Positions 5,033 to 28,169 of a DNA stretch of 55,889 nt are shown here, piece by piece (the stretch's first letter is position 1; each line of letters starts with the position of its first letter). This DNA is from an uncultured Faecalibacterium sp. (GTDB lineage: Bacteria > Bacillota > Clostridia > Oscillospirales > Ruminococcaceae). Location of the stretch: assembly GCA_934525735.1 (NCBI GenBank), contig CAKSZM010000005.1, positions 1-55,889 on the forward strand, in the 5' to 3' direction. The translations under genes were made by a program, and so were the position numbers. A model generated the notes under the pieces. The model was not told the origin of the DNA. It made no database searches and worked only from the letters and a program-made list of their open reading frames with translations.

Positions 5033-5049
5033 AGTGTACCTCTTTATTT

Positions 5050-9510: not shown

Positions 9511-9567
9511 AAAGGTGCTCCTTTTTGCAATCTTTTCTTCAGTATAGCATATCCTGCAGCGGAACGC

Positions 9568-9616
9568 AAAAAGCCGCCGGGAGCGGCAGGCTTCTGCCTT
9601 TCTCCCGGCGGCTTTT
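9568..9616 (-). terminator. Terminator of nagE
   Basis: An 11-bp perfect stem gccgccgggag / ctcccggcggc has a T run on the minus strand, just beyond the stop at 9672. Confidence 0.85.
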
Positions 9617-9671
9617 ATTCGGATGCGGGATCAACCAGTCTCCCGCATGGAGGTCTTTGCAGGATGCTGCG

Positions 9672-11138: not shown

Positions 11139-11456
11139 AAAGTACATTCCTCCTTAAAGAATGTTTGTGTTTACAGACGTCTCTGGTTGTCAGCCGTCCA
11201 TAATTCCGTAATAAAATATTAACATACTTTTGCAAAAAAAGAAAGTCCTTTTCCCTTTATTTCTATCAAATTGCTACAAAAGTCCTTATTTGATGATTTT
11301 GCCGTCAACAATTTTTGTTTTCCGCGCACAAAAGTCTGCTTTATGCTGAAAATTCCTTTCTTTTTATATCCATTTTGCCCAAACGCTTGCATCCCACCGC
11401 AGAATCGGGTACTATACTATTATATGGAAAGCTGAAAACCGAAGGAGGTTTCTTTT
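11139..11456. promoter_or_regulatory. Divergent control region nagE / prmA
   Basis: 318 bases without a gene. For prmA on the plus strand TTGCAT (11388-11393), a 17-base spacer and TACTAT form a good sigma-A promoter. For nagE on the minus strand a TTTGCA, 17 bases, TATTAC arrangement near 11214-11242 is plausible but weaker. The rest is AT-rich with no clear operator. Confidence 0.55.
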
Positions 11457-12371: not shown

Positions 12372-12394
12372 CAAGAGGCTTTTCAGGAGGAACT

Positions 12395-13138
12395 ATGCCG
12401 CACCGTTATTTTACCACAGAGATCTCCGACGGCACCGCCACCCTGCGTGGAGCGGATGCCCACCACCTGGCACGGGTGATGCGCGCCCGGCTGGGAGACA
12501 CTGTCATCTTATGCGACGGCAACGCCGTGGAATACACCGCCACCATCACCGGCTTCGGGGATGAGTGCGTAGAATTTTCGGTGGAGCCGGGCTATCCCAG
12601 CGCCGCCGAACCCAGCGTGGAAGTTACCCTGCTGGCGGGCTATCCCAAGCAGGACAAGCTGGAACAGATCATCAAGCACGGCGTGGAGCTGGGCGCGGCG
12701 CACATCGTGCCCTTCTTCAGCCGGTACTGCGTAGCTGCCCCCAAAAAGGAAGAGCAGAAGAATGAGCGCTACAACCGCATCGCGCTGGAAGCCGCCAAGC
12801 AGTGCGGCCGGGGCGTGCTGCCGGACGTGGCCCTGCCGCTGCCCAACTTCGGGGCTGTGTGCCGCGCCTTTGAGCAATATGACCTTGTGCTGTTCTGCTA
12901 CGAGTGCGGCGGTGCGCCCCTGCGGGAGCTTCTGGCCGCTGCAAAGCCTGCCGGCGGTCAGAAGTTGAAACTCGCCATTGTGACCGGTGCCGAGGGCGGC
13001 TTTGCCGCCGAGGAGGCCGAAATGGCCGCCAAGGCCGGGGCGAAGACGGTGGGCCTCGGCCCCCGCATCCTGCGGTGCGAGACCGCCCCGCTGGCGGTGC
13101 TTTCCGCCGTGATGACCCTGACCGGGAATCTGGAATAA
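12395..13138 (+). CDS. rsmE: 16S rRNA m3U1498 methyltransferase RsmE
   Basis: 247 residues. A PUA-like N-terminal domain (HRYFTT...HHLARVMRARLGD) is followed by a SPOUT knot domain with IVTGAEGGFAAEEAE and LGPRILRCETAPLAVLSAVM, the SAM-binding trefoil marks of RsmE. It methylates U1498 of 16S rRNA. Start from AGGAGG 4-5 bases upstream of the ATG. Second gene of the prmA operon, ended by a strong terminator. Confidence 0.95.
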   Translation: MPHRYFTTEISDGTATLRGADAHHLARVMRARLGDTVILCDGNAVEYTATITGFGDECVEFSVEPGYPSAAEPSVEVTLLAGYPKQDKLEQIIKHGVELGAAHIVPFFSRYCVAAPKKEEQKNERYNRIALEAAKQCGRGVLPDVALPLPNFGAVCRAFEQYDLVLFCYECGGAPLRELLAAAKPAGGQKLKLAIVTGAEGGFAAEEAEMAAKAGAKTVGLGPRILRCETAPLAVLSAVMTLTGNLE

Positions 13139-13153: not shown

Positions 13154-13194
13154 GCCGCCGTGCAAGTCCAGACTTGCACAGCGGCATTTTTTTT
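13154..13194 (+). terminator. Terminator of prmA-rsmE
   Basis: The stem gccgccgtgcaagtc / gacttgcacagcggc (one mismatch) is followed by eight T residues. It forms the left border of the 13-26 kb accessory locus. Confidence 0.92.
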
Positions 13195-13204: not shown

Positions 13205-13232
13205 TTGAAAAAAACACGGATTTTGTTATAGT
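13205..13232 (+). promoter_or_regulatory. Promoter of the kinase-STAND operon
   Basis: TTGAAA (13205-13210), a 16-base spacer and TATAGT (13227-13232) sit directly after the rsmE terminator and 30 bases before the first start codon, leaving a short leader. Confidence 0.65.
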
Positions 13233-13262
13233 AGAATCACACTTAATTTGCGGAGGTGCTGC

Positions 13263-15023
13263 ATGATGGCGGATCCTTGGAAACCTCGGGACGATCACTC
13301 CAACGAAATCACAAACCGCAGCCTTGCGCTGCTTGATTCGGAACTGCTCGACCAAAAATTGGCGGCATTCCTGCAGAAAGCCGCCAACGGCGGAGCCTCT
13401 GCATCGGAGGCTTTCACCGATATTTTAAAAAAAGATCTGTACAAGTTCCGGCGGGAGTTCCGCTGCTCGACCCAGTTCGTGCTCATGCGGATCTTTTTTG
13501 CCCGCTACGGCGGGGACAACACCCCTGAAAACGGCTTTACGATCTCCGTCGGCGGAGAGCCGCTTACCTTCCGCAACATCACCAGCGATCATGCCGAGGA
13601 TCTCCACGGCCTTGTCGAGGAGCTGAAAAAATATCAGCTGCTGCTGCGGGACACCGCAAAGCGCAAGCTCTTTCTGGATCTGCAGGAGGTCCCGGATGCC
13701 GTCCGGAATGCCGAGCAGGAAAAACGCTGGAACCGCGCCTGCGAGCTGATCGACGAAGCGCTGGAATGCACCCTGACCGGGAACGGCACAGCGGAGCCGA
13801 AGCCCCGGAACGAAAAAGACCCGGTCATGCCCCGGCAGGATCTTCTGGAGCTGGGACACTATCTCGGTCTGTCTTTGGCCGAGATGAACGCATTTCTGCT
13901 TCGTTCTCTTGACTTTGAAGACGGGCTGTTCTACAGCTTTTCCGGCGATCTCATCGAAGCGTATGGTTTTCTGACGCAAAGCTCAGCACAAAAGGTCGCG
14001 CTGTTAAAAGAGGAGTACCTCGTTCAGTCGCAAGCCTACCTCAAAGGCCATCAGCCGTCCGGCAAACGGGACAGCGACATGACAAAGAGACTGGGAGCGA
14101 TGCTCCCCGCTCTTGTATCCAGATGGCCCGTCGAAAAACGCGACAGCTATTTTATGGCTACGCTGCTCAGCAATTCCTTCTGGCTGGACAAGCCGTCGCA
14201 GACCGCGCTTCGGATCTACCACAATCTGGCGAAAGCGGCATATGACATGATCTGTCAGATCGAGGCGATCGAAAAGGACCGGAAGCTGAGCATGGAAGCC
14301 AAGCAGTCGGCCGTCAAAGCGGTCCTGACCGGAGATCCCGGCAGGGAAAGCCCGCATATGGTCTACGAAAAGATCATGAACATCCTCCGTCGGGAGGATG
14401 ACGCCCTGGAATCTCTGGGCGAAGAGGAGCGGAAAGCGATCGCGGATAAGCTGATCTCTTTCCAGTCCCGCACGACCAGAACCACCGTGCACAGCCACGC
14501 AGGGACAGCAAACGCAGTCCGCACCGCTCTGGTCCCAAGCAGCATCCCGGACCGCATGAAATCCTGGTGCGCGATCCGTCTGGGACCGGATAAAAAATTG
14601 ACCATCACCTGGCGGTTCGGAAACGAAGGCCGCACCCGTGTGCAGGATCTCCTGCTGGGAAACTGCACGGCGAAAGACAAGGACGGCGTCTCCCGGATCT
14701 ACGGCGTCCAGAAAGAGGATATGCTCTCCCTGCTGTGGGCATTTTTCAATGTCTACTGGGCTTATCTCAGGCCGTTCTCTGCCGGCGAACGGCTCGATGA
14801 GTTCTGCAATGCCGCAGACGCCGTGCTTGCGGCAGCCCTTCTGCCGCGGTTTTATGTGCCGCACATCTTTGAACAGGCTCTGCTCCGGTCGATCCTGTAT
14901 TCTGCAGCGGTAACCGCCAACTCCAGGTACCAAAGCCCGCCTGCCATGCTGCAGTCGGTCCGGGAGACCACCGTGCGCACCCGCGAGCGGAAACCCAGAA
15001 AAGGGAGGGATGAAAATGACTGA
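13263..15023 (+). CDS. Unknown protein, partner of the kinase-STAND protein
   Basis: 586 residues, soluble, helical and charged, without signal peptide or membrane segment. I recognise no domain. A stretch near residues 190-250 (LLELGHYLGLSLAEMNAFLLRS followed by S.DLIEAYGF) resembles the helical module that follows XRE-type helix-turn-helix motifs in some Firmicutes proteins, but this is weak. The C-terminus is Arg/Lys-rich (RTRERKPRKGRDEND). GGAGG lies 6 bases before the ATG at 13263; a second ATG at 13266 is possible. Its last 8 bases overlap the kinase gene, so the two are coupled and probably act together, as regulator, substrate or adaptor. Confidence 0.75.
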   Translation: MMADPWKPRDDHSNEITNRSLALLDSELLDQKLAAFLQKAANGGASASEAFTDILKKDLYKFRREFRCSTQFVLMRIFFARYGGDNTPENGFTISVGGEPLTFRNITSDHAEDLHGLVEELKKYQLLLRDTAKRKLFLDLQEVPDAVRNAEQEKRWNRACELIDEALECTLTGNGTAEPKPRNEKDPVMPRQDLLELGHYLGLSLAEMNAFLLRSLDFEDGLFYSFSGDLIEAYGFLTQSSAQKVALLKEEYLVQSQAYLKGHQPSGKRDSDMTKRLGAMLPALVSRWPVEKRDSYFMATLLSNSFWLDKPSQTALRIYHNLAKAAYDMICQIEAIEKDRKLSMEAKQSAVKAVLTGDPGRESPHMVYEKIMNILRREDDALESLGEEERKAIADKLISFQSRTTRTTVHSHAGTANAVRTALVPSSIPDRMKSWCAIRLGPDKKLTITWRFGNEGRTRVQDLLLGNCTAKDKDGVSRIYGVQKEDMLSLLWAFFNVYWAYLRPFSAGERLDEFCNAADAVLAAALLPRFYVPHIFEQALLRSILYSAAVTANSRYQSPPAMLQSVRETTVRTRERKPRKGRDEND

Positions 15024-18000
15024 CTCCGCCCGGCAGGATGCCCGCACCGCATGGCTTCTCCGCGAAGGCGACCAGCTCATTACCGCCGGCGGCGACCGGT
15101 ATACGATCCTGGACGGCGCTCCCGGTCTGGGCGGAAGCGGCGTAGTTTACCCGGCCCGGAAAAACGACGATGTTCTTCTGTACGCGGTCAAAGAGTGTTT
15201 TCCTTCCGGCGACGGTCTTTTTTGTTGGGAGCGCCGGAACGGCGTGATCCGTCCGGCAGCTGCTTTTCCCGGCATGGAGAACGATCTGCAAATGCTCCTG
15301 CCGCAGCTCCGCGCTTCTTATGAGCAGGAGAAAACGGTCAGTCAGGAGATCAGCAACCGCACGAACCGCGTTGTGGAGGTCCGCGACCGTCTTGCGGTCC
15401 GCGAAGTCATCACAAACGGGCAGACGTACAGTGTGGAACGCGGAGACTTTGCACCGGAGGAGCCGCTTTATCTGCTCATGCAGTACCAGACCGGCCGGAA
15501 CGGTTCGGCCGGCCGCGGCATGTTCCTGCCCGAATTGCTGGATGAGATCGCAAAAAAGCCCTGTTCCGGGTTTCCTCTGCGCACCGGCGGCCGGCCGTCG
15601 CCTCTGACCGCAGTACGCATCCTGCGGGAAGTGCTGCTGGCGCTGCAGGCAGTCCACGCGGCGGGCTATCTCTATGGGGACATCCAGCCGGGCAATCTTC
15701 TGTTTCTCGGTCAGGATCTGGAGCACGGCGAGATCGGGCATTGCTGTCTGCCGGATCTCGGCTGTGCCCGGAAGCTGGAGCCGGACGGTCAGACAGCACC
15801 GGTCGGGGACGGTCCGCTTTTTACCACCAGCGGCTATACCCCGCCCGAGATGCTGAACATCGGGCAGGCGCAGCCCCAGGATCTTCGCAGTCTGCGGCTG
15901 ACCCCCGCGGCCGACATTTATTCTGCCGGCCGGCTGCTGCACCTTCTGCTTACCGGGCGTTCCTACAAAGGCAGCCTTGAGCAGCACTTTTACCGTTTTC
16001 CCATGGCAAGGCAGCTTTCGCCCGCAGAGGTCCGCTGCACGCCGGACTGCTTCCGGCGGCTGGAAAAGCTGACGGAACGCATGGTCGCAACCGACCGAGC
16101 CGGCCGCGCCCAGACCGCAGAGGAAGTCTTGTACGGTGACGGCGGCCTCGATGCGCTCTGCAGCCTGCTGGCCCCTCCGCCGTGGCAGGTGACCCTTGCG
16201 GTGCCCATGTGGGACAGCAAAAAAGTCTTTGGGCGCGAAGAAGATCTGGAAGCCGTCGGCCGGATGCTGCAGGCTCCGGATGCATATAAGCCGCTCTTCC
16301 TGACCGGTTTTTACGGCATGGGCAAATCCACTCTGGCGGTCCGGTTTGCGCAGGGATGGAAACAGAACTATCCGGATGCGCAGGTGTTCTGGGTGCGCTT
16401 TCCCCAGCAGGGCGGCCTTCCGGTCCTGCTGGGAGAGACGATGGCGCAGGCGATCTCAACCGTTCAGACCCGCGACTCCGCCGGCTGCCGGCTGCCGCAG
16501 AAAACGCTCTGCGACGATGTGCTGGAGCAGCTTGGCCAAAATCTCCGCAGGGATGATCTGATCGTCATCGACAATGCGGACAGCGAAACCCTTACCCTGA
16601 CAGAGCTTTTGTACGGCACCGAGGACGAGCGGGATGCCGCGCAATGGAAGGAAGATCTTTATCCCAGACTGTGCAGCCTGCCCGCCCACATCCTGATGAC
16701 CACCCGGATGGCCGTGCAGAAGGAGAAGAGCTTTTATCACTATCCTGTAAAGCCGCTGTCTCTGTCCGCGCTGCGGGCCATGATGCGGAGCTATTATCCA
16801 GCGCCCTGTTCCGACAAGGTGCTGGATGACCTGATCACGCTGGTGGAATCTCACACCATGACCGTGGGCATGATCGCCCGCACCATGCAGGACAGCGGTA
16901 TCGCACCGGAGGAGATGCTGGAAAAACTCCGCCAACCCGGCGGCTACGATGACGAAGCTTTTGTCCGGATCCCGGGCGAGCAGCCGGGAGAAGGCGAGCG
17001 CCGCAGAAAGATCGAGGGTCATTTGCTGCGGCTCTTCCAGATCCAGAACCTTCCCCAAAAAGAGCAAGCCATCCTGCGGGATGCCCTGCTGATCGGTGAC
17101 AGCGGGATGCCCCGCGGCCTGTTCTGGAAGCTCAGCCCCGAGATCCGGAAGGGCAGCGACAAGGACGCCTACCAGCATCTTGTTGCCCTGGGCTATATCA
17201 GCGAGAGCCTGCAGGCACCGGCCGATGAACCGCTGCTGCACATCCACGCGCTGGTCCGGGTCGTGGGACGGAAAAAGGTTCCCCCGACGGAAGAGGAGAT
17301 CGAAGCGTTTCTGAGCGGTGTTCGGAACAATCGGTCGATGAAAGCGGATTCTGATGATTCCTTGTGGCCTTCTTTTTACTCAATGGAGGTCAAGCTTTTG
17401 TCTGTAGCGGAGTCCTACCAGATGGCATGGTCCTTTTCTCCACAAAATACCTATTTGTCCTTTAAGCGAGCTGTCGATGCGCTTGACTGGTATGATCATT
17501 CTCATCTGGCAAAACGGAATCGGGAATTTTCAGAAAAAGCACTCGTCCGCGGGGTCACCCTTCAGGATCTGAAAGAAAAGACACAGCCGCCTTTTTATGC
17601 CAGATCGTATATAGCAGTCTTCATGGATGCATGGCGTTTCTACTGCAAAAACCGCAGTCTTGCCATAAAGCCCGACGAAACAGGTTTTGCCCTGGAAGTA
17701 TACTCCAAATTCTTCGATTGGATGCATTTCAAGCGGCTGACAGATCTTGCACAGCTGGCTGCCGGTGCAGAGCCGATTTCTGTGCTCGTGAATGCCTGCC
17801 TGCAGCGTGATACCGCTCACCAAATCGTTTCCATCACAGAGAGTGATGAAGCCGACTGGCTCCGGCAGAAGGCAGAGCTTGGCAAACTGGTAGTCGGCCT
17901 GTATGAGCAAGAGGGTCTTCCGCCCACTTCAGAGATCGTGAGCATTCATGATACCCTGTGCGACATTCTCGAAGAAATCAATGACCCCTGTTTGAAAGAG

Positions 18001-18624
18001 TACCAGTTAAAAGCCGCCCTTGCAGAAGAGCGGCTTACCGGCCCATCCATCAATGTGATCTCGCTTGAATACAAAGATTGGCTGTTTCATCACGATCAAT
18101 CCCTTGAATATCGGTTTGCTATGCTCGATATGCCCGGAAAGTCCCTCTTCTACGCCAGGGAAGCCACAAAGATCATTCGTCACACTTATCCTTCGAAAGT
18201 ATTCTGGTCTTCCGACTCCTACTACTGCATCCGCTGGGATGGAACCTGCACAATCCTTTTAGATTCGGACAGGGAAGAAGAAGCGCTGCAGCATGTACTG
18301 CGTGATATTTCCACGATCGAAGCCATTCCCTCTGAGAGATTCGCACGGGAGCAGTTGGAAGCTTGCCGTTCTTGTTCCATGACGACCTATGAAACTTATC
18401 GGATCACGGATATCGGCAGTTCCGATTCGGCAGAGTGGAGGGTCACGCTTGTGCCATACCGCAGGGCATGTGCGATTTACCTGAACCGCGGCCAACCTGT
18501 CATGGCAGAGCACTACAAAAACAAGGCTCTTGCGCTTTACAAAAAATACGGTGACCCGGCCCTCTCCGGAAAGCCCGTTCTTTCTGAAGACACAACGCTG
18601 GATGCTTTTCTCTGTAAAACGTGA
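15016..18624 (+). CDS. Protein kinase fused to STAND/NB-ARC NTPase
   Basis: 1202 residues in three parts. Residues about 25-370 form a Ser/Thr kinase-like domain: glycine loop GLGGSGVVY (about 38-45), AVKE with Lys59, catalytic loop YGDIQPGN (Asp222, Asn227; the usual Lys is Gln224), DLG with Asp247, and SGYTPPEM in the activation/P+1 region. Residues about 395-720 are a STAND NTPase: Walker A GFYGMGKST (Lys437), Walker B DLIVIDNAD (Asp519) and LMTTR (about 561-564). The remaining ~480 residues are helical with no clear repeats and would be the sensor part by analogy with Avs/NLR-like proteins. The kinase retains key residues and is probably active. The ATG at 15016 is preferred over 15010 because GGGAGGG is about 7 bases away. 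An opposing PP2C gene follows. Confidence 0.9.
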   Translation: MTDSARQDARTAWLLREGDQLITAGGDRYTILDGAPGLGGSGVVYPARKNDDVLLYAVKECFPSGDGLFCWERRNGVIRPAAAFPGMENDLQMLLPQLRASYEQEKTVSQEISNRTNRVVEVRDRLAVREVITNGQTYSVERGDFAPEEPLYLLMQYQTGRNGSAGRGMFLPELLDEIAKKPCSGFPLRTGGRPSPLTAVRILREVLLALQAVHAAGYLYGDIQPGNLLFLGQDLEHGEIGHCCLPDLGCARKLEPDGQTAPVGDGPLFTTSGYTPPEMLNIGQAQPQDLRSLRLTPAADIYSAGRLLHLLLTGRSYKGSLEQHFYRFPMARQLSPAEVRCTPDCFRRLEKLTERMVATDRAGRAQTAEEVLYGDGGLDALCSLLAPPPWQVTLAVPMWDSKKVFGREEDLEAVGRMLQAPDAYKPLFLTGFYGMGKSTLAVRFAQGWKQNYPDAQVFWVRFPQQGGLPVLLGETMAQAISTVQTRDSAGCRLPQKTLCDDVLEQLGQNLRRDDLIVIDNADSETLTLTELLYGTEDERDAAQWKEDLYPRLCSLPAHILMTTRMAVQKEKSFYHYPVKPLSLSALRAMMRSYYPAPCSDKVLDDLITLVESHTMTVGMIARTMQDSGIAPEEMLEKLRQPGGYDDEAFVRIPGEQPGEGERRRKIEGHLLRLFQIQNLPQKEQAILRDALLIGDSGMPRGLFWKLSPEIRKGSDKDAYQHLVALGYISESLQAPADEPLLHIHALVRVVGRKKVPPTEEEIEAFLSGVRNNRSMKADSDDSLWPSFYSMEVKLLSVAESYQMAWSFSPQNTYLSFKRAVDALDWYDHSHLAKRNREFSEKALVRGVTLQDLKEKTQPPFYARSYIAVFMDAWRFYCKNRSLAIKPDETGFALEVYSKFFDWMHFKRLTDLAQLAAGAEPISVLVNACLQRDTAHQIVSITESDEADWLRQKAELGKLVVGLYEQEGLPPTSEIVSIHDTLCDILEEINDPCLKEYQLKAALAEERLTGPSINVISLEYKDWLFHHDQSLEYRFAMLDMPGKSLFYAREATKIIRHTYPSKVFWSSDSYYCIRWDGTCTILLDSDREEEALQHVLRDISTIEAIPSERFAREQLEACRSCSMTTYETYRITDIGSSDSAEWRVTLVPYRRACAIYLNRGQPVMAEHYKNKALALYKKYGDPALSGKPVLSEDTTLDAFLCKT

Positions 18625-18639
18625 TATTTTCCGCAAAAT

Positions 18640-18685
18640 AAACTCCGCCGCTGCACAGAACGGGATCTGTGCGGCGGCGGAGTTT
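18640..18685. terminator. Bidirectional terminator between the kinase and phosphatase operons
   Basis: A 19-bp near-perfect stem (aaactccgccgctgcacag / ctgtgcggcggcggagttt, one mismatch) stands between two convergent genes, with short A/T tracts on both sides. Confidence 0.85.
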
Positions 18686-18696
18686 GCTGTTTCAGC

Positions 18697-19392
18697 TCAC
18701 GATGATTTCAGCTCCAGCAGCAGACAGCTGGCGTCATCCGGCGAATCGAGGTTTTCCAGCCTCTGCCGGATCTGTTCCGGCGAGGCACGGTTCAGCAGCG
18801 GCTCCCATGAAAGAGGGTATGCTCCGTCCGTCATGAGAAGGATCCGGTCATACTGTTCCTCTGCAAACCCATATTCCACCCGCACATGCAGCAGCGCATC
18901 CGGCGTTGTGGTAAACGCCGTGTACTGCGCCGTGATGCCGTTTTCCGGCCGGCTGATGATTTTTCTCCCGCCGTTCTTCAGGGCAAGGATCAGCCCGTCT
19001 CCAAGATGGATCGTTGCATATGCACCTGTCCGGTCGGCCAGAAAGATCATCAGAGTTGAGGCCAGGGACGACACCTCCTGGTGATGCTGCTCCGCAAGCG
19101 CCCGGAGTTCGCTTCGCACTGCATGGAGCAGTTCGTAGCAGAGCTCGTCCGGATAGCGGGTATTCTGCAGCTCCAGAATGCTTTGTCTGGTGCGCAGCTG
19201 CCGCCAAACCGCTTCCAGCGCCGCTTTGCCACCCAGACCGCTGCAGGCATTGCCCGATCTTCCATCCGCAAGGCCATAGAATCTCATGCTGCCGTTCTCT
19301 GCACAGAAAAACGCATCCTGATTGCTCTGATGCTCATTTCCGGTGCGGGTGATATAGGTGTATTCTGCCGCTGCAAGTTTTCCATTTGCCAT
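18697..19392 (-). CDS. PP2C-family (PPM) serine/threonine phosphatase
   Basis: 231 residues. PPM motifs are present in order but divergent: TRTGNEHQSNQDAFF, GLADGRSGNACSG (usual VADGMGG), IHLGDGLILAL (usual GDSR), ILLMTDGAYPLSW (usual SDG) and the final SPDDASCLLLEL (usual DNAT). The metal-binding aspartates are kept, so it is probably an active Mn/Mg-dependent phosphatase that reverses the neighbouring kinase. Start at 19392, one base after the stop of the upstream gene, with AGAGAGG as ribosome site. Last gene of the minus-strand operon. Confidence 0.85.
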   Translation of the reverse strand: MANGKLAAAEYTYITRTGNEHQSNQDAFFCAENGSMRFYGLADGRSGNACSGLGGKAALEAVWRQLRTRQSILELQNTRYPDELCYELLHAVRSELRALAEQHHQEVSSLASTLMIFLADRTGAYATIHLGDGLILALKNGGRKIISRPENGITAQYTAFTTTPDALLHVRVEYGFAEEQYDRILLMTDGAYPLSWEPLLNRASPEQIRQRLENLDSPDDASCLLLELKSS

Positions 19393-19393
19393 C

Positions 19394-20533
19394 TCAGCCA
19401 ACCTCTCTGATCCCTGCCGCAGCCAGCTCTTTTCCCACGTCCGTGTCCGCTTTGATAAGATAAACAACACGGTTGTCGTTTTCATTTGAAGAGCGGAGAG
19501 AGACCGGCTCGACCCCAAGACCGATCGCTGTCAGACGGCCGGACAGATTCGGGTCTGCTTCACACAGCAGTTTTTTTACTTCTTTCGCACGGGCAAGGCC
19601 GAACTCTTTGGTGGCCTGCAGGGAACTGCCGTCATCCGCAGTGAAGCCGGAGACATAATAAGCATCCGTTGTTCCCGCCAGTTGTTCCGCCAGCGCAGAG
19701 AGCGCCGCTCTTGCCGCTGCCTCGTCCGCCAGCTCGGTAGAATCGCTTTTGAATGCGACCGCCTGCGGGTCGATCGCCGTCACGGACGGCAGCGTGTACG
19801 CTTCGCCCGTTTCGACGACCGTCACCGCCGGGGCATCTGCGGGAGTCTCGTATTCTTCCGGCAGATCATCCGGGAAACTGACGCTTGCGCCGCAGGCTTC
19901 CAGATAGGCCTTCCAGAACGCTTTTACAAAGTCTCTCTGTTTTGCGCTCAGCTTGTTCTGCGGGGACTGCACATCTCCCGCATAAAACCAATGGATCTGC
20001 GTTCCCTGCAGCTGAGCAAGCTCACCGTGCTCATCCAGTTCGCGGATCAGGGCAGGGATCTCGTCCGTGTTCTCCAGATCCAGATTCTGGAAACATACGG
20101 CGCCTGCCGTGCTCAATCCGCTGTGGGCGACCACGATTTCTTTGATGCCTGTCCGGGCAGTCTGCTGAAACGCCTGCACAAGATCGGTTTCGGGGTCATC
20201 CGCCCCGGCATTCACCAGCGCCTGCTGCAGATTCTGCCGGTTCAGGTTGTGCTGCTGCTGATTGCCTTTCTTGACGGGGTCAAATTTGAGGTTCTCGACC
20301 GCCGGGTCTCCATCTGCCTGGACTAATGTGATCTGCCCGCCGTCCAGCGCACTGGTCAGTTCCGGCACGTCCTCCATGCCGGCTGCCGTAACATAGGGGT
20401 TATTCTCGCCGTTCAGGAAGACCAGCGCAACCTCCTTGGAGCTGGAACTGCCGGTCTTTGCACAGGCAGTCAGGGTCAGAAGTGCGGCCGAAACAGCCGC
20501 AGCGGACAGGACGCGAAACATCTTATTTTTCAT
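19394..20533 (-). CDS. Lipoprotein with C-terminal OmpA-like domain
   Basis: 379 residues. A signal peptide with lipobox LTAC-A anchors it outside the membrane. The middle (about 35-230) has alternating strands and helices (EVALVFLNGEN, IKEIVVAHSGLSTAG, QGTQIHWFYAG) that might be a divergent von Willebrand-like or related fold; I could not assign it. The last ~120 residues resemble an OmpA/MotB peptidoglycan-binding domain (AVAFKSDSTEL, EFGLARAKEVKKLL, GLGVEP, NENDNRVVYLI). It would tether the system to the cell wall. It lies between the phosphatase and the membrane protein. Confidence 0.78.
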   Translation of the reverse strand: MKNKMFRVLSAAAVSAALLTLTACAKTGSSSSKEVALVFLNGENNPYVTAAGMEDVPELTSALDGGQITLVQADGDPAVENLKFDPVKKGNQQQHNLNRQNLQQALVNAGADDPETDLVQAFQQTARTGIKEIVVAHSGLSTAGAVCFQNLDLENTDEIPALIRELDEHGELAQLQGTQIHWFYAGDVQSPQNKLSAKQRDFVKAFWKAYLEACGASVSFPDDLPEEYETPADAPAVTVVETGEAYTLPSVTAIDPQAVAFKSDSTELADEAAARAALSALAEQLAGTTDAYYVSGFTADDGSSLQATKEFGLARAKEVKKLLCEADPNLSGRLTAIGLGVEPVSLRSSNENDNRVVYLIKADTDVGKELAAAGIREVG

Positions 20534-20587
20534 AGAAAGTTCTCCTTTTTTTCATGGCCTGCGGCTCCCGCCACAGGCTGTGGATCA

Positions 20588-21628
20588 TCAGACATTCCCG
20601 GGGAAGAAATTGACTGCTTTCTGGAGCGCAGGAGCTTCCTCCGTCACCGTCAGACTGCCCGGCGCAGCATTGACCGCGATAAGCTTGTCCAGCTGCTCCG
20701 GAAAATGCTCCGTGTCTGCCTTCAGCAGCTTCTCCGTTACATCCGGGCCGAAGTAATTCCCCAGTTCAACGGCCATCTGCAGCTGTTCCTCTTCCGCTTG
20801 AAGATGCAGCCGCTCCAAAGCCACACTGAGGTTTGCCTGGTCGTATTTGTCGTCGTCGAATCGGTTCAGGCCGTCTCTCAGGGACTGAAGCATTGTTTTG
20901 TGGAGGCCGCATACCTCATGGAGATAAAGCTCCGCATTTTCAAGCTGCTCGATCCGGTGCTGACGGGCGTCGCCGTCAAAATTGGTCACTGCGGCCAGCA
21001 GGGAGGTCAGCACAGGTAAACCAAGCAGCAGGCTTTTCGAGATACCGCCCTGCCGCTTGCCCTGATCAAGCTCTTCCAGCTGAGCATTCAGCTGCTCACG
21101 CTCGGCTGTGTGGTCTCCCTTTTTTCGTTCCAGATCATCCAGCTGCAGCAGGACGGCCGATTTTTCAGTAGCGATCTCGACCTCCTCCGCTGTAACATTC
21201 AGGTTCACATAGGAGAGGTAGCCCAGAACCACAACGGCCGCAGACAGTACGATCAAACCGATTTTTCCGCCGCTGACCTTCCGCGACGCAAGCGTTTCCG
21301 CCACATTCTGTGCCAGAACGCTTGCGCCGATATCAAGCGCCGCCGGGATCAGCAGGCAAAGCAGAAACGCCATACCGTAACCCGTGCTGAACACCTTGTT
21401 TCCCGCGCACCACACGCAAATGCAGTCAGCCACACAAGCCAGAGCCGTGCACACGATGCCCAGCGGTGACTTTTTCTTGAGCCAAAGCTTTTCCCACGCT
21501 TCCTTTTCCGCGTCGTCCGCCGCTTTCTTGAGGGCGGGTTTCTGGCCGTAACGGATTCCACGAACCACGTCCAGCTGACGGTAATTGATGATGTCTTTCG
21601 TCATGAAACCGCGTGTATTCATGTTCAT
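20588..21628 (-). CDS. Multi-pass membrane protein with coiled coil
   Basis: 346 residues. About four membrane segments can be seen: near residues 55-77, 80-108, 120-145 and 195-213. A charged coiled coil (EIATEKSAVLLQLDDLERKK... about 150-192) sits between TM3 and TM4, and a second helical region of about 120 residues follows. No domain recognised. The start codon overlaps the stop of the upstream gene (ATGA), so the two are translationally coupled. It may form the membrane platform for the lipoprotein. Confidence 0.75.
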   Translation of the reverse strand: MNMNTRGFMTKDIINYRQLDVVRGIRYGQKPALKKAADDAEKEAWEKLWLKKKSPLGIVCTALACVADCICVWCAGNKVFSTGYGMAFLLCLLIPAALDIGASVLAQNVAETLASRKVSGGKIGLIVLSAAVVVLGYLSYVNLNVTAEEVEIATEKSAVLLQLDDLERKKGDHTAEREQLNAQLEELDQGKRQGGISKSLLLGLPVLTSLLAAVTNFDGDARQHRIEQLENAELYLHEVCGLHKTMLQSLRDGLNRFDDDKYDQANLSVALERLHLQAEEEQLQMAVELGNYFGPDVTEKLLKADTEHFPEQLDKLIAVNAAPGSLTVTEEAPALQKAVNFFPGNV

Positions 21629-22107
21629 ACGGAGGCTTCCTTTCTTTTTCCGCTTTTTTCGCTTCGGGGGGTGCGCAACTCACGGATCTCGTCCTGCAGG
21701 AGGGACAGTTCCTGTTCCTCCGCTTCGACAAGAGCGGCAAGCTGACGTTCAGTCAATTCCTTGTCTGCCTTGTTGACCAGCGCATCCCGCCAGCGGGTGA
21801 TGCGTGTCTCGCGGAGCATGACCAGTTTGCACTCCTCTTCCCGCAGCGCCACAAGGCGGAGCAGGCAGCGGGCGGCTTCCTCGTTCAGATCACCCTCATC
21901 TGCAATCTTCTTGACTTTCTCGCGCAGCTCATCAAATTTTTTCTCAGCCGCGTCGTTCGGATAACGTCCGGTAGCATTATAGGAACCGGCATCCGCCCGT
22001 TCGATCGTATGGATGACCGTATGATGGTCCCAATCCAGAAAAATGTTCTCACGCTCATCTTCCGGAGGGGTGGCTGCCTCCGGCTTCTTTTTCTTAAAAA
22101 AGCCCAT
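21625..22107 (-). CDS. Small charged helical protein
   Basis: 160 residues, strongly charged, predicted largely coiled coil after residue 50. The N-terminus MGFFKKKKPE is basic and resembles a membrane-surface binding tail. There is no cysteine pair or enzyme motif. It lies 5 bases after the upstream gene and overlaps the membrane protein by 4 bases. Function unknown; probably a scaffold subunit of this locus. Confidence 0.7.
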   Translation of the reverse strand: MGFFKKKKPEAATPPEDERENIFLDWDHHTVIHTIERADAGSYNATGRYPNDAAEKKFDELREKVKKIADEGDLNEEAARCLLRLVALREEECKLVMLRETRITRWRDALVNKADKELTERQLAALVEAEEQELSLLQDEIRELRTPRSEKSGKRKEASV

Positions 22108-22112
22108 CTTAC

Positions 22113-22697
22113 TTATTCCTCCTTCACACCCATTCTTTTGATAAATTCATCGGCCGAAAAAGTTTTTGCGACTTTCGGCACTTCCTCTTCCACAACGGTA
22201 AAGTAGCCGGACTTGGAATATTTCACCAGCTGCAGATTCAGCTCCCGGGCAGCAAGCTCGATCTGCTGCTCCGCCTGTTCCGCCTTCCGGCAGATGGACG
22301 CCGCCAGCGCTGCACGCTGGGCGCGGGCACCCGTCACCTTGGCACGGCGCTCTTCCGCAGCCTGCTGCTGGGCACGGGCGCGGCGCTTCTGGCCGGTCGT
22401 CGTGTTCTTGGCTGCATCGGGCAGTGCCGGGGAGGGCAGGGCACTCTCCGCCGCCGGTGCAAGCGCACGGTACGTTTCCAGATCGCTGCAGACCGCCTTT
22501 TCCAGCGCAATGAGAACTCTTGTTTCATAAGCCGCAAGCTCCCGGCGGCAGCGTTCGAAGTAGGCACCCTGTACCGTTTTGTTCTGCAGCAGACGGTTTT
22601 TTTTCATCAGTCGGTCCACGATGCCCTTTATTCCCGCAAAGCGATCCGGCTTCCATTTCGGAACCGCCCATTCACCAGCCTTTTTTTCATCGTTCAT
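22113..22697 (-). CDS. Charged helical protein, first gene of the minus operon
   Basis: 194 residues, soluble, with long Ala/Arg/Glu-rich helices (QKRRARAQQQAAEERRAK, ICRKAEQAEQQIELAAREL) that probably form a coiled coil. The ATG at 22697 is preferred because AAGGAGA is 9 bases upstream; the ATG at 22703 is too close. No known domain. It opens the five-gene minus-strand operon and faces the nuclease operon across a palindromic control region. Confidence 0.7.
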   Translation of the reverse strand: MNDEKKAGEWAVPKWKPDRFAGIKGIVDRLMKKNRLLQNKTVQGAYFERCRRELAAYETRVLIALEKAVCSDLETYRALAPAAESALPSPALPDAAKNTTTGQKRRARAQQQAAEERRAKVTGARAQRAALAASICRKAEQAEQQIELAARELNLQLVKYSKSGYFTVVEEEVPKVAKTFSADEFIKRMGVKEE

Positions 22698-22756
22698 GGT
22701 CATTTCTCCTTTCGGATTAACTGTGCGCTGAGTATAGACCATCCTGCGTCGGCAAA

Positions 22757-22797
22757 TTTTTTAAGACCGGAATTTTCAAAATTTCCGGTCTTAAAAA
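22757..22797. promoter_or_regulatory. Large palindrome between divergent operons
   Basis: A perfect 14-bp inverted repeat (ttttaagaccggaa 22759-22772, ttccggtcttaaaa 22783-22796) has a centre that is itself nearly symmetric (tttt-c-aaaa). It lies midway between the two divergent start codons at 22697 and 22861, which suits a dimeric repressor/activator site controlling both operons. It could also fold as an RNA hairpin. No regulator gene of a known family lies in the locus. Confidence 0.6.
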
Positions 22798-22830
22798 TTT
22801 TCAGCCCGCCGCCTGTGATTTGATCTGTTT

Positions 22831-22844
22831 GTGGAATCTTCCAC
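22831..22844. promoter_or_regulatory. 14-bp palindrome GTGGAATCTTCCAC in the nuclease leader
   Basis: A perfect 6+2+6 palindrome sits just before the ribosome site (AAAGGA) of the nuclease gene. It could be an operator or a small mRNA hairpin limiting translation of the nuclease. Confidence 0.4.
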
Positions 22845-22860
22845 AGAAAGGATGTTGTCC

Positions 22861-23601
22861 ATGTCACGAAGTCCATACTCTTCCCTGCAGGCCAACGCAG
22901 TCTACGATGGCCCGCACGGCGCGGAATACCGCACAGACTCTGCCGGACGTGTCGTCCACTGGAAGGCAGAAGCTCACCAGACGCCGAAAGACGCCCAGCT
23001 GCGCAACCAAAAGGCGCAGTATACTCTGGAAGGAAAAGGCCCCGGCTTTGAACACGCCGGCCACCTCCTCGCGAACCAGCACGGTGGAGCAGGCGAGAAA
23101 TACAATCTTGTGCCGATGAACGCACACGTCAACACGGTGGATTACAAAGCCTTTGAAACAGAGACCACCCATCTCCTCAGCGATGGCAGCCGTGTTTTTC
23201 TGAACGGCTCTGTCAGCTACAGCATCAGCCCGGAACTGAACGGTGTCAATCAGCCGGAAGCGTTCATGGCAGATCGCACCACGGTCAGCCCGGACGGCAA
23301 GCAGACCGACCGCGAGTACGTCTCGTGGTCCAACCTGGACATGCGCGAATTTGAAACGGCCGGCAATGCTGAGAGTGAGTCTCTGATGAACCAGTTCGCC
23401 AACCCCGGTGCCGTTGCCTACGACGAAGAGAAAGATCTCATCCTCGATGAAAATACGGGCGGCGTGCTGAGCGAGGCCGAGGCTCCCGCCGCTGTTCCGG
23501 GCGCTGCCATGGCCGGCACCGCCGCTCTCAGCTCCGGTGAAACTCCAACGGCAGCTTCACCGGCCTGTGCAGAGAACGAACAGATGGCTCTGACGCTTTA
23601 A
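22861..23601 (+). CDS. DNA/RNA non-specific endonuclease family protein
   Basis: 246 residues. Residues about 20-110 match the beta-beta-alpha-metal endonuclease NS_2 type: DSAGRVVHWKAE, then FEHAGHLLANQHGG with the catalytic His68 (DRGH class), and YNLVPMNAHVN with Asn91. The Asp and Arg of DRGH are replaced by Glu/His and Ala, so activity needs testing. A beta-rich middle and a long Ala/Pro/Ser-rich acidic C-terminal tail follow. No secretion signal is seen. Proteins of this family are often toxin tips; here it stands alone at the head of an operon with a VirD4-like ATPase. ATG at 22861 follows AAAGGA by about 9 bases. Confidence 0.8.
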   Translation: MSRSPYSSLQANAVYDGPHGAEYRTDSAGRVVHWKAEAHQTPKDAQLRNQKAQYTLEGKGPGFEHAGHLLANQHGGAGEKYNLVPMNAHVNTVDYKAFETETTHLLSDGSRVFLNGSVSYSISPELNGVNQPEAFMADRTTVSPDGKQTDREYVSWSNLDMREFETAGNAESESLMNQFANPGAVAYDEEKDLILDENTGGVLSEAEAPAAVPGAAMAGTAALSSGETPTAASPACAENEQMALTL

Positions 23602-23617
23602 AGAAAGGGAATTGCCT

Positions 23618-24940
23618 ATGATGCAAGAGATGGTTTCCGGTTCCTACACCCGCAGCAACACTCTGCTGCCCCGGGCAGACGCCCTGGTGCGTCTGCCCTG
23701 CAGCTGCCACAACCAGCCGGCAGAGCTGGACATCACATCCCGGCAGCTGACCAAAGGCGTCATCCTGATCGGTGATCCCGGCTGCGGAAAAACGACGGCG
23801 GTCTGTTCGGTTTTAAAGCAGCTGCGCAGCAAGCTTGCGCCCGGCGACCTGCTGGCGGTCTATGACCCCAAGAGCGAGTTTGCAGACTCTCTCGGCCGGA
23901 AAGGGGATATCCTTCTGGGCGGCTCCGAAGCCCACGCTCCCAATGTCCGTTCTAATATTTTTTCAGAGGCGCTGGCCGGTCCGGCAGGCCGCAGATCCAT
24001 TTCCGTCGGCGCCCTGCGCGGCCGTCTCCATGCCATCGCCCTCGGCATCATCCCGGAAGAAAACAAGAGCGACACCCAGCCCTATTTCATCCACTCTGCC
24101 CGCCGGGCGCTTGAGATCATTCTGGAAGCATGCCTGCTCACACCGGCACTTCTGCCGGAGCTTTGCAACGAAGCGCTGCTTCAGGCGCTCGGCTCGGAGA
24201 AGTTCCTCGCACAGGTCATCCGCGTTTCCGGTCAGGGCAGCACCCTGCAGGAGCTGATCGGCTCCGGCAGCACACGCAATATCGCCCAGCAGAACGTTTA
24301 CGCGGAGCTGCTTCTGAACGCACAGCAGACGATGATGGGGTTCAACCGCGGAGCCGCCCCGGATGCAGAAAAATTTTCCATCGTCAGTGCGGTCCACAGC
24401 GATCCGGGCGGCCGGGCTGTCTTTCTGCAGAACCGCTGGACCGAGGGCGGCATGACACAGGCCTACGCCGGACTGCTCGTTCAGCTTCTTGTAGACGAAT
24501 GGCTCACCTATGGCAAAGGCCGGAAGCTTTACCTTGTGCTGGACGAGTTCTCCAACCTCGGGGCCGGTGTTCAGGCAACGCTTACAAAGGCGCTGAGCCT
24601 TGGCCGGTCGGCCGGTATCTGCCTGATCTGCACCGCACAGAACGTTTCGATGCTGAAAGAAAAGTTCAAAACGGCGCAGTCCATGCTGGCCAGCTTCCAG
24701 ACAAAGCTGCTCTTTCTCACCACAGACGCCGAGACCCGCGGGCTGATAAAGCATCTGTGCGGCAAGGTCAGAAGCCAGACTCTGAATTTCTATCCCGGTG
24801 TAAGCCTGACAGCCGGCGCCGTACAGGAAACGGATGCCGTCACCGACACCGAGCTGATGGATTTCGACATCGGCACCGCGGTCTATACCGCACCGGGACA
24901 GGCCCCCTGTATTGTAGACCTGCACGAGGAGGGATGCTGA
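23618..24940 (+). CDS. VirD4/TraG-like P-loop ATPase
   Basis: 440 residues. Walker A GVILIGDPGCGKTTAV (about 50-65), AVYDPKSEFADSLG and GDILL..NVRSNIFSEAL, and Walker B KLYLVLDEFSNLG followed by LSLGRSAGICLICTAQN match the coupling ATPases of type IV secretion and the wider FtsK-HerA class, which move DNA or protein as hexameric motors. No N-terminal membrane anchor is present, unlike true conjugation coupling proteins. No relaxase or T4SS genes are nearby. ATG at 23618 with AAAGGGA 7 bases upstream; 16 bases after the nuclease stop. Confidence 0.82.
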   Translation: MMQEMVSGSYTRSNTLLPRADALVRLPCSCHNQPAELDITSRQLTKGVILIGDPGCGKTTAVCSVLKQLRSKLAPGDLLAVYDPKSEFADSLGRKGDILLGGSEAHAPNVRSNIFSEALAGPAGRRSISVGALRGRLHAIALGIIPEENKSDTQPYFIHSARRALEIILEACLLTPALLPELCNEALLQALGSEKFLAQVIRVSGQGSTLQELIGSGSTRNIAQQNVYAELLLNAQQTMMGFNRGAAPDAEKFSIVSAVHSDPGGRAVFLQNRWTEGGMTQAYAGLLVQLLVDEWLTYGKGRKLYLVLDEFSNLGAGVQATLTKALSLGRSAGICLICTAQNVSMLKEKFKTAQSMLASFQTKLLFLTTDAETRGLIKHLCGKVRSQTLNFYPGVSLTAGAVQETDAVTDTELMDFDIGTAVYTAPGQAPCIVDLHEEGC

Positions 24941-24941
24941 A

Positions 24942-26102
24942 ATGACGGCGCTCCGGCGTTTCCTTGACGCACTGTTTCTGGATCAGCAGACCTATGCCGC
25001 ACTTTACAGCGATCCTTCGGTCCCGGCCGGGCCGGCTCTTCCGGAGCAGCTTCTGCCCCTGAAAGGCACCGCCGGCACGGACAGCCGGGACACCACGCGC
25101 TACATGATCAGCGGCGGCAAACGCTCCGCACGAGTCCTTGCCCTGCAGCGTGTCCTGACGGAAGAACCGATCCCCCGCACGGTGGTCATCACGGCAGACC
25201 CGCGCCTTGCAAACGATCTGTGCGTCACCGGCGTTCAGCTCGGTGCAGGCTATGACCCGATCCTGCATAAGCCCCCCATGCTGGCCGCCGGCATCCTCCA
25301 GAAAGCAGCACTGGCTGCAGGCTACTCCATCCCGGAAGCAGGATTTGCGATCTCAGCCTCTCTGAACGAGCTGCAAAATACCGGCGAGCTGAGTTTCGAG
25401 CGGTTCGTAATGAACGGCTGCGCCTCGCTCAGCTCCAGAGCCTTTCAATCCGGCCGCACCGATGCAGCGGCCACGCAGACTGTGCCGGGCGCAAGGCAGC
25501 TGGACTCTTACCGGCAAAGTTTCATCCGGAACTTTCCGTCATCCGGCAGCCGGCCGCGCAGTCTGCAGTCTCTTCTGACGGGGATCGGTCCTCTGGTTTT
25601 TTATGCGCCTTCGGCGGAAGAGATCTTTCTCGTGCTGGAGGATCTGAAGGGCGAGCTGCGCGCCGGGCATGTGGGCGCCGTGGTGCTGGACGAGGTCTGT
25701 TCCGTGCTCACGCAAAAAGCCCTGGACGAGCTTTCCCTCTTTTTCTGTCCGGTCATTCTGTCGGACGCCGATCTTCCCGCGCGCGGCATTTTCTCCGCCG
25801 CCTGTGTCGGCCTGACAGCAGGGCTGTTCTTCAACCATCAGTCCGGAGCCGCAAAGCTTTCCGAGTTCTTCGGCACGGTCAAACGGCCTCAGGTCACAAC
25901 CACGGCCAATTACGGAACTGCCGACAGCGAGTGGGGCGGCGGACCGTTCGGGATCTTCGGCAACACCACGGTTTCGTCAGGCACCTCTACGAGCACTGTC
26001 CTGATCACCGAACCGCGGGTCACATCCGCAAAGATCAGCGCACTTCCTGCGGGCGAAGCGTACTTATACAACAGCGGCCGGCTGTACCGCTGCCATGTGT
26101 GA
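24942..26102 (+). CDS. Unknown protein, possible degenerate ATPase partner
   Basis: 386 residues, cytosolic. Features resemble a worn copy of the upstream ATPase: RYMISGGKRSARVLALQRVL where a Walker A would lie but lacking GxGKT, VGAVVLDEVCSVL as a Walker B-like strand, and a C-terminal VSSGTSTSTVLITEPRVT..LPAGEAYLYNSGR like the tails of TraD/TraG proteins. It may form mixed rings with the ATPase or act as its adaptor. The start is one base after the ATPase stop (TGAAATG), so translation is coupled. The homology is inference only. Confidence 0.65.
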   Translation: MTALRRFLDALFLDQQTYAALYSDPSVPAGPALPEQLLPLKGTAGTDSRDTTRYMISGGKRSARVLALQRVLTEEPIPRTVVITADPRLANDLCVTGVQLGAGYDPILHKPPMLAAGILQKAALAAGYSIPEAGFAISASLNELQNTGELSFERFVMNGCASLSSRAFQSGRTDAAATQTVPGARQLDSYRQSFIRNFPSSGSRPRSLQSLLTGIGPLVFYAPSAEEIFLVLEDLKGELRAGHVGAVVLDEVCSVLTQKALDELSLFFCPVILSDADLPARGIFSAACVGLTAGLFFNHQSGAAKLSEFFGTVKRPQVTTTANYGTADSEWGGGPFGIFGNTTVSSGTSTSTVLITEPRVTSAKISALPAGEAYLYNSGRLYRCHV

Positions 26103-26122
26103 AAAGGAGAACTGTCGCTATT

Positions 26123-26485
26123 ATGATGAAAAAGCGCTTTTTCATGCGGCTTGGCGCCACAGCCGGAGCCGCGCTGGCCATCACCCTCTGGGTATCCGCC
26201 AATACCTTTTTCCCGTTCGGCAAGGCCCTGCTGCTGTTCGCCGTGCTCCTGGGCCTCGGCTTTTCGCTGGATACAGCGGGCCGCTGCCTGAAAAGCGCCC
26301 TCAGCGGGGTCGCCGGCTACGGTATGTTCAGTATCATCGGGCAGAGCCCGCTCGGGTTCATCGTGGTCATCATTGCCGCCATCCTGTTTCTATGGGCAGC
26401 CGTACTCGGCTGCACGGTCCTCGGTTACTGCAACCTCATCCGCAAATACCTTGAGGCCGATGCGCACGACCGGCTCCAGCCCTGA
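26123..26485 (+). CDS. Small membrane protein
   Basis: 120 residues with about four hydrophobic segments (AGAALAITLWVSA, ALLLFAVLLGLGF, SGVAGYGMFSIIG, FIVVIIAAILFLWAAVLGCTVL) and basic ends. No known family. Last gene of the nuclease operon, 20 bases after its neighbour, with AAAAGGAGA as ribosome site. It may anchor the ATPase, which lacks its own membrane domain. Confidence 0.7.
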   Translation: MMKKRFFMRLGATAGAALAITLWVSANTFFPFGKALLLFAVLLGLGFSLDTAGRCLKSALSGVAGYGMFSIIGQSPLGFIVVIIAAILFLWAAVLGCTVLGYCNLIRKYLEADAHDRLQP

Positions 26486-26506
26486 ACCGTCTGTTCCGGA
26501 CAAAAC

Positions 26507-26552
26507 AAAAACGCCGCCGCACAGGAGCCAGACTCTGTGCGGCGGCGTTTTT
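26507..26552. terminator. Bidirectional terminator, right border of the accessory locus
   Basis: An 18-bp stem (aaaaacgccgccgcacag / ctgtgcggcggcgttttt) separates the nuclease operon from the convergent ptsI. Confidence 0.92.
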
Positions 26553-26561: not shown

Positions 26562-28169
26562 TCAGCCTTCTGTTTCCAGCAGTGCTTTTTTGACGTTGAG
26601 CAGGTTCTGCGGGCTGACGGAAAAGCTCCGCAGCCCCAGTTCCAGATACTGCACGGTGTTGGCCGGGTTGCCCACGGCAAGGCCGCAGATGGTCACCGGC
26701 ACATTGCCGGCCCTTGCAGCGTCCATCACCATAGTGATAAGCTTTTTCATCGCGTGGCTGGCCGGGCGGTAGTAGTGCTCGGCGCTGGCCAGCTCCCGGT
26801 CGGCGGCGTGGGTATACTGGGTCAGGTCGTTGGTGCCGATGACGAGGAAGTCGCACCCGTGGGCCACGAACTCTTCTGCGGTCAGGCAGGCCGCCGGGAT
26901 GCTGAGCATCACGCCGAATTTCGTGTTCTCATTGAAGGGCACGCCCCGTTCTCTCAGATGCTCCCGGCAGCGCTCCACCACCCGCATGGCGGCGTCCCAG
27001 TCCTCCACGTTGGTCACCATGGGGAACATCACCCGCAGCGGGCCGCGGGCGGCCGCCCGCATCAGCGCGCAGATCTGCGTTTCGAACTGGCGGGGCTGGC
27101 GCAGGCTGTTGCGGATGCCCCGCAGACCCAGCTTGGAGGACTGCAGTCCCTGATAGGCATCGGCCATGGTGCGGTCGGCACCAAAGTCGAAGGTGCGCAC
27201 CGTCACCGGCTTGCCCTGCGCTGCGGCAAGGCAGGAGCAGTAGAAGAAATACTGTTCCTGCTCATCCAGAATGCGCCCCGGCAGCATCATGTAGCTGCTG
27301 CGCAGCAGGCCCACGCCGCCCGCGCCGGACTGCATGGCCGTGTCAATGTCCTCGGGGCCGAAGCAGTTGGCCAGCAGTTCAAACTCCCTGCCATCCTTCG
27401 TGCGGTCGGGCAGGTCGCGCAGCAGGCTCATCTCTTCGTTCTCCCGCTGCAGTTCGCAGATGCGGGTCTCGGCCTGCTGGCGGGCCTCAGCGTCCGGGTC
27501 CAGGATGCACTCGCCCTTGGTCGCATCCAGAATGACCGTGCGGCCGTCGCAGTCATCCAGAAAATCCCGGCCCACCTGCACGACGCCCGGAATGTTCATT
27601 GCCCGGGCAATGATGGCGGCATGGCTCTGGCCGCTGCCCTCGGCGGTGATGATGCCCAGGATCATGCCGGACGGCACACTGAACAGGTCGGTGGGCATGA
27701 GCCGGTCGGCGGCAAGGATCACCGGATGATCCAGTGCCAGCCACATGCGGGGGCGGTTGGTCAGGATGTTGATGACCCGGCGGGTCGCGTCCAGAATATC
27801 CACGCTGCGCAGCTGCATGTAAGGGTTATCTTTCATATTGGCCAGCTGGTCGGCGTAGCGCTGACCCACCTGATTCATGGCCGCCGCCGCGCCGATGCCC
27901 GCATTGATGCAGAAACGCACCTCATTCATCATGCCTTCGTCTTCCAGCATCATGCTCTGGAACTGGAAGATGGCCTGCTCGGTGGGCGCAGCGCGGTCTG
28001 CCATGGAGTCCAGCTCCGTCTGCGCCGTGTGGATGGCGTCGGTCAGCATCTGCAGCTCCCGGGCCGGGCTGAACGGCCCCACCGTGGACGTTTCCACATG
28101 ATGTTCCAGCCGGCTGACCTGCCCCAGCACCAGCCCCGGCGAAGCGGAAGAGCCTTTATACACCTTCAT
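26562..28169 (-). CDS. ptsI: PTS enzyme I (phosphoenolpyruvate-protein phosphotransferase)
   Basis: 535 residues, slightly shorter than the usual ~570. The phospho-histidine motif is GSGQSHAAIIARAMNIPGV; the PEP site shows GLRGIR, GTNDLTQYTHAADRE and the catalytic cysteine in TICGLAVGNPA. It takes phosphate from PEP and passes it to HPr for sugar import, for instance by the nagE permease. No HPr gene is adjacent. The start overlaps the upstream patatin gene by 14 bases. Confidence 0.9.
   Translation of the reverse strand: MKVYKGSSASPGLVLGQVSRLEHHVETSTVGPFSPARELQMLTDAIHTAQTELDSMADRAAPTEQAIFQFQSMMLEDEGMMNEVRFCINAGIGAAAAMNQVGQRYADQLANMKDNPYMQLRSVDILDATRRVINILTNRPRMWLALDHPVILAADRLMPTDLFSVPSGMILGIITAEGSGQSHAAIIARAMNIPGVVQVGRDFLDDCDGRTVILDATKGECILDPDAEARQQAETRICELQRENEEMSLLRDLPDRTKDGREFELLANCFGPEDIDTAMQSGAGGVGLLRSSYMMLPGRILDEQEQYFFYCSCLAAAQGKPVTVRTFDFGADRTMADAYQGLQSSKLGLRGIRNSLRQPRQFETQICALMRAAARGPLRVMFPMVTNVEDWDAAMRVVERCREHLRERGVPFNENTKFGVMLSIPAACLTAEEFVAHGCDFLVIGTNDLTQYTHAADRELASAEHYYRPASHAMKKLITMVMDAARAGNVPVTICGLAVGNPANTVQYLELGLRSFSVSPQNLLNVKKALLETEG

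Follow-up and report, generated by a model that had tools for sequence, protein, structure and literature searches.

A possible phosphorylation-gated nuclease-ATPase conflict locus in an uncultured Faecalibacterium sp., with a gene trio recurring in a distant Oscillospiraceae genome

We found that three genes of an eleven-gene locus in an uncultured Faecalibacterium sp., encoding an uncharacterised protein (A), a kinase (B) and a PP2C phosphatase (C), recur as a trio in a distant Oscillospiraceae genome; this recurrence is new here. The locus lies in a window of 55,889 nucleotides (the whole stretch of DNA analysed). We read it, tentatively and with somewhat less than even confidence, as an unnamed phosphorylation-gated nuclease-ATPase conflict system, probably directed against invading DNA. 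This reading starts from the domains observed in four of the proteins (B, C, H, I) and from the finding that A, kinase and PP2C recur together at a single distant locus.

The interval from rsmE to ptsI holds 11 ORFs, grouped in three operons of which A-B and H-K point rightward and C-G leftward; order and strands are those that a first-pass annotation of this DNA had given. The flanking genes it named were recovered by Pfam (rsmE, Methyltrans_RNA, E 3.6e-45; ptsI, PEP-utilizers_C, E 6e-73), as was prmA (E 6.7e-82). The features are as follows.

Gene A, 13263-15023, + strand: about 586 aa; no Pfam family above cut-off
Gene B, 15010-18624, + strand: 1204 aa; kinase, STAND/NACHT-like NTPase and helical C-terminal part
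Inverted repeat/hairpin between B and C (converging operons A-B and C-G), 18640-18685, no strand assigned: terminator-like, no adjacent T-run
Gene C, 18697-19392, - strand: PP2C phosphatase (PP2C_2, 2.1e-24)
Gene D, 19394-20533, - strand: predicted lipoprotein with an OmpA-like C-terminal domain by motif
Gene E, 20588-21628, - strand: membrane protein with several hydrophobic segments (hydropathy); no Pfam family above cut-off
Gene F, 21625-22107, - strand: small protein; no Pfam family above cut-off
Gene G, 22113-22694, - strand: small protein; no Pfam family above cut-off
Inverted repeat of 23 nt between the divergent genes G and H (operons C-G and H-K), 22754-22801, no strand assigned
Gene H, 22831 (or 22861)-23601, + strand: DNA/RNA non-specific endonuclease (Endonuclea_NS_2, 1.6e-16)
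Gene I, 23612 or 23618-24940, + strand: TrwB/TraG/VirD4-type ATPase
Gene J, 24942-26102, + strand: no family in Pfam, NCBIfam, PADLOC or PHROGs
Gene K, 26123-26485, + strand: small membrane protein (hydropathy); no Pfam or PHROGs family
Hairpin between K and ptsI, about 26507-26552, no strand assigned: T-run; z -5.6 and -4.4

The overlap is 14 nt between genes A and B and 4 nt between E and F; the gaps C-D and I-J are 1 nt each, and 10-16 nt separate the end of H from the start of I. The boundaries had been described as terminators, which held in part. Hairpins were present at three boundaries: B-C (z -8.2 for the + strand RNA; second value z -6.8), K-ptsI, where the structure is likely a bidirectional terminator, and 3' of rsmE, where a hairpin with a T-run was seen by eye at about 13154-13194. 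However, the hairpin between B and C lacks a T-run, and a terminator pattern scan gave 30 sites (expected 15.1, sd 4.4), none of which corresponds to these hairpins. The repeat between G and H (RNA z -6.2 and -4.6) is possibly a shared operator of operons C-G and H-K. Promoter-like sites numbered two against a chance mean of 3.6, that is, no excess. GC content was about 0.53-0.62 per 2-kb window, the locus resembling its flanks; Rfam gave no family at threshold in the window, whose sole tRNA lies at 55060.

Most of the protein families named in the first pass were recovered by profile: kinase (B, Pkinase 2.7e-11, Pfam), PP2C, NS_2 nuclease and TrwB/TraG ATPase (I, TrwB_AAD_bind 8.4e-23 and TraG-D_C 4.3e-12). 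The STAND assignment of B stayed below the curated Pfam cut-offs (AAA_16 3.2e-5, NACHT 1.8e-4, and AAA_22), next to a Walker A motif at 433, IVIDN at 518 and LMTTR at 562. The best solved relative of I is the TrwB structure (8.7e-6), and the protein carries a Walker A motif at 54 and LVLDE at 308. By eye, the motifs of the kinase, NTPase, PP2C and nuclease look intact, which, in these families, we take to predict active enzymes. The phosphorylation switch proposed in the first pass, together with its STAND-type NTPase, PP2C, nuclease and VirD4/TrwB-type ATPase, found support.

The OmpA-like lipoprotein fared less evenly. D has a lipobox-like LTAC at 21-24 and a hydrophobic stretch at 6-24, and its OmpA-like part is indicated by a weak NCBIfam MotD match (residues 259-362, E 0.023) and by motifs recognised by eye; on the other side, Pfam gave no OmpA support at E<=1. 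A search for a solved-structure relative of D found none. The predicted structure of A (pLDDT 63; best PDB match E 1.5) yielded nothing meaningful, and the single-sequence prediction for J (pLDDT 35) was unusable. J was also considered as a degenerate paralogue of I and this was not supported: single-sequence hhalign gave E 0.29 and 0.12, full-length shuffling gave z 1.7 (34 of 500 shuffles as good) and the C-terminal parts gave z -0.5. PHROGs, searched with ten proteins (A and C-K), returned no match better than E 0.006.

The second locus, L001, was found by scanning GTDB species genomes with an alignment of A: 96 pattern matches were obtained and one was confirmed, on contig JAJQDP010000009.1 of an Oscillospiraceae MAG. 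Here three genes follow one another on the same strand: the PP2C at 8991-9743, the A relative at about 9803-11443 and the kinase at about 11463-13022. By sequence comparison, A and the PP2C are clearly related to their L001 counterparts (A: 28% identity, E 3e-38, shuffle z 58; PP2C: 37% identity, shuffle z 62), and the kinase is of the same family (shuffle z 15.6, a family-level match; the pair was unreported by tblastn at E<=0.1). None of 300 shuffles reached the score in any of the three tests. Gene A represents an uncharacterised protein family and would be a core partner of the kinase and PP2C.

Upstream of the trio, L001 encodes a HerA-like ATPase (4175-6778; DUF87 3.2e-7, PADLOC DndH 2.2e-18) and, directly 3' of it, a nuclease of 180 aa (Colicin-DNase 9.9e-13, WHH 5.6e-8). 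Both loci have an ATPase and a nuclease side by side. The nucleases are unrelated (L001 nuclease vs H, z -0.7) and the ATPases remotely alike (vs I, z 4.7, a score reached by 1 of 300 shuffles), so that the layouts are parallel and homology is not shown: L001 has a HerA-type ATPase and a colicin/WHH DNase, whereas the window has a TrwB-type ATPase and an NS_2 nuclease. When D-K were compared with ten other L001 frames there was no clear counterpart (z <=3.3) bar two pairs, K with a membrane frame (z 6.8) and I with an AAA gene (z 6.7).

Other differences concern the kinase and the remaining genes. The L001 kinase frame is about 516-560 aa with no fused STAND domain seen, whereas the window kinase is fused to one. 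L001 lacks detected D-G-like genes and has a SUMO-like (ubiquitin-like) protein (3.3e-8), a ThiF-type E1 (1e-15; PADLOC E1-E2 5.2e-13), a probable E2 (E2-like motifs by eye) and a JAB-like protein (E 0.032, below cut-off), together with transglutaminase, SPFH, AAA ATPase and M50-like genes. L001:1-16767 and L010:6529-10562 are parts of the same contig (G001 C49), which also carries TPR and YbjN-like genes, and together they form a long conflict-like locus. We know of no published description of it.

With the trio in L001, and the window PP2C in the operon facing A-B, operons 1 and 2 are linked. The ATPase-nuclease pair beside the L001 trio points to the membership of operon 3. The first-pass view of the three operons as one unit is, then, partly supported; against it, this unity depends on one distant second locus, and D-K are without clear counterparts there.

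Relatives of A outside the window were few in the genome samples. The wider A profile matched a single genome, that of L001 (G001), in each of three overlapping samples: 297 genomes of its family, 391 of the class and 398 of the phylum. In protein searches with A, E and I, each of which scored about 8000 candidates, such that distant relatives may escape, A gave five clusters. Two were almost the same as the window protein (99 and 93%), and the more distant P0006, P0007 and P0008 had 42, 41 and 31% identity. I gave two clusters at E<=1e-20 and E gave one at E<=0.001. These clusters represent 227 (A), 186 (I) and 111 (E) member sequences, so the window's own version is not rare in sequence data. 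Pattern scans of viral contigs, which mostly detect close relatives, were negative for A, J, D and E; a phage collection gave no relative of I, and plasmids gave none of J, A or H. Two plasmid records of Curtobacterium matched I at 25% identity, and the one examined had no kinase or PP2C annotated within 15 kb. On Curtobacterium plasmid pS16 (L036:14935-17583) the TrwB-like ATPase, 25% identical to I, has no membrane segments at its start, and single-stranded DNA-binding and HNH endonuclease genes lie just downstream.

The arrangement on the Curtobacterium plasmid also bears on the reading in which the locus consists of separate neighbours: A-B-C for signalling, D-G for the envelope, and H-K as a remnant of transfer and nuclease genes of a mobile element. 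In its favour, that plasmid ATPase is near an HNH endonuclease gene and has no kinase or PP2C neighbours, each operon has boundaries of its own, and E, I and J are almost without detected relatives, conservation having been shown for the trio alone. However, one member of the trio, the PP2C, lies inside operon C-G, and L001 too has an ATPase-nuclease pair beside its trio. Moreover, no relaxase, integrase or transposase was noticed by eye near the locus, and megablast against phage and plasmid records gave no match. We regard separate neighbours as unlikely.

Named systems were compared gene by gene. No system with this gene set was found in the profile libraries (Pfam, NCBIfam, PADLOC) and no description of it was recognised in the open PMC literature, judged by title and opening abstract, in agreement with the first-pass annotation, which knew of no named system with exactly this set. 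Among the MADS models mad1-mad8 (PADLOC), only B (mad6, 5.6e-15) and I (mad8, 2.4e-12) matched within A-J. For B, PD-T4-6 (5e-17) ranks ahead of mad6, and the NCBIfam MAD6 score was 34.6 bits against a cut-off of 460. As a control, the phosphate ABC ATPase PstB (4265-5032, - strand) matched mad3 (3.2e-36) and mad8 (4.3e-11). Since it matches mad8 about as well, the mad8 match of I carries no weight, and MADS membership was rejected because a housekeeping protein scores alike. The PADLOC mad3 and mad8 models pick up P-loop ATPases in general. The window shares with MADS a kinase and P-loop ATPases; it differs in that A-J match only the generic mad6 and mad8 and in that the locus has no methyltransferase.

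HerA/FtsK ATPases occur with nucleases and STAND-related ATPases in anti-invader systems, according to two papers (PMC10853773, PMC12839542). The capture systems and DndFGH, as outlined in the first of these (PMC10853773), may share with the window a HerA/FtsK-superfamily ATPase, a nuclease and a STAND/Orc-related ATPase. In the window, by contrast, I is of the TrwB/TraG type, a wider relative, H is a predicted standalone NS_2 nuclease, and a kinase, a PP2C and A are added; no HTH protein was recognised in A-J at E<=1 (Pfam). For the BREX core (PglX/PglZ/BrxC), the sole PADLOC match among A-J was that of D to PglZ, at E 0.012. Zorya consists of ZorA/ZorB with an OmpA-type domain and nuclease genes, and the window likewise has a membrane protein and an OmpA-like wall-binding protein near a nuclease; D, however, is lipoprotein-like and not MotB-like, and no ZorA-ZorD model matched A-J at E<=1 (PADLOC; K outside the scan).

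C is close to the PP2Cs of TerY-P-like triads, with A standing where the vWA protein would be. Of 291 class genomes searched with the PP2C profile at E<=1e-12, four matched; one is the L001 genome, and in all three others the PP2C adjoins vWA-type frames (vWA motif by eye). On plasmids, four records matched C at E<=1e-3; two have an annotated vWA neighbour and one other carries no annotation. These neighbourhoods favour a TerY-P-like stress switch, in which A replaces the vWA protein and the cluster adjusts an envelope or DNA-damage response with no attack on invaders, as does a class of conflict systems in which kinase, PP2C and vWA genes co-occur, reported in PMC7159879. The PP2C, of one close group, and the kinase of the triad are present in the window, but Pfam gave no vWA (TerY) family in A-J at E<=1, and the window has A for the vWA protein and a kinase fused to STAND. 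The triad is not known to include a nuclease or a DNA-pump-type ATPase. We consider a stress switch quite improbable.

The first-pass annotation had also proposed that the machine releases or delivers a nuclease, and this part was not supported. A contact-dependent or export machine, in which the coupling ATPase I sends H through the envelope under kinase/phosphatase control with D-G as envelope parts, has in its favour the resemblance of I to type IV coupling proteins and the lipoprotein and membrane proteins among D-G and K; NS_2 domains are common in secreted toxins, and type VI secretion is known to be under kinase/PP2C control. Nevertheless, we give it little chance, since Pfam found no type IV secretion channel genes (VirB4 etc.) in A-J and no secretion component among the ten flanking proteins scanned, H has on inspection no evident export signal, trafficking domain or adjacent immunity gene, and I has no hydrophobic or membrane segment (hydropathy). 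In the rest of the window, type IV secretion channel genes were not seen by eye.

With nuclease export less likely, we return to the phosphorylation-gated conflict system. B would sense an invader or an envelope signal through its STAND NTPase and C-terminal part, and nucleotide binding would switch on the kinase. The kinase would phosphorylate A, as substrate or adaptor, and perhaps other partners, and C would reset the switch. The signal would license H-I-J-K as a module: I, the TrwB/HerA-type ATPase, would grip or pump DNA for H to cut. K perhaps holds I at the membrane, and D-G would link this complex to the membrane and the cell wall. On this reading both the window and L001 combine a phospho-switch with an ATPase and a small nuclease.

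A broader proposal, which we hold with more doubt and consider rather unlikely, is that the two loci represent a new phospho-immune class, in which a rare A/kinase/PP2C core is set on interchangeable ATPase-nuclease effectors and varied sensing or tagging modules. These modules would be a STAND sensor with a wall-bound complex in the window and a ubiquitin-like conjugation set in L001. If the readings are true, a nuclease-ATPase defence would be switched through phosphorylation by a STAND-fused kinase and reset by its own phosphatase, a switch it would share with a locus encoding a ubiquitin-like pathway. They would also offer a route to how bacteria restrain a nuclease without an immunity protein, and add the uncharacterised family A as a likely substrate or adaptor.

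Elsewhere in the window, PADLOC on ten further proteins gave, beyond PstB, a single other match. This 218-aa protein (52026-52682, + strand) aligns only with positions 729-934 of the 945-position mREase_IV model (3e-44), and thus resembles a standalone C-terminal piece of the type IV restriction enzyme model. It lies about 25 kb off and was not counted as a defence island.

The ptsI gene (26562-28169, - strand) had 27-37% identity to its best matches in three Clostridia genome samples (43 of 128 class genomes at E<=1e-40, 13 of 150 of one family at E<=1e-85 and 29 of 61 of another at E<=1e-60), which reflects either a divergent gene or a poorly sampled lineage of the window. A neighbouring GTPase-like protein had matches in 25 of 107 genomes, at 46-69% identity.
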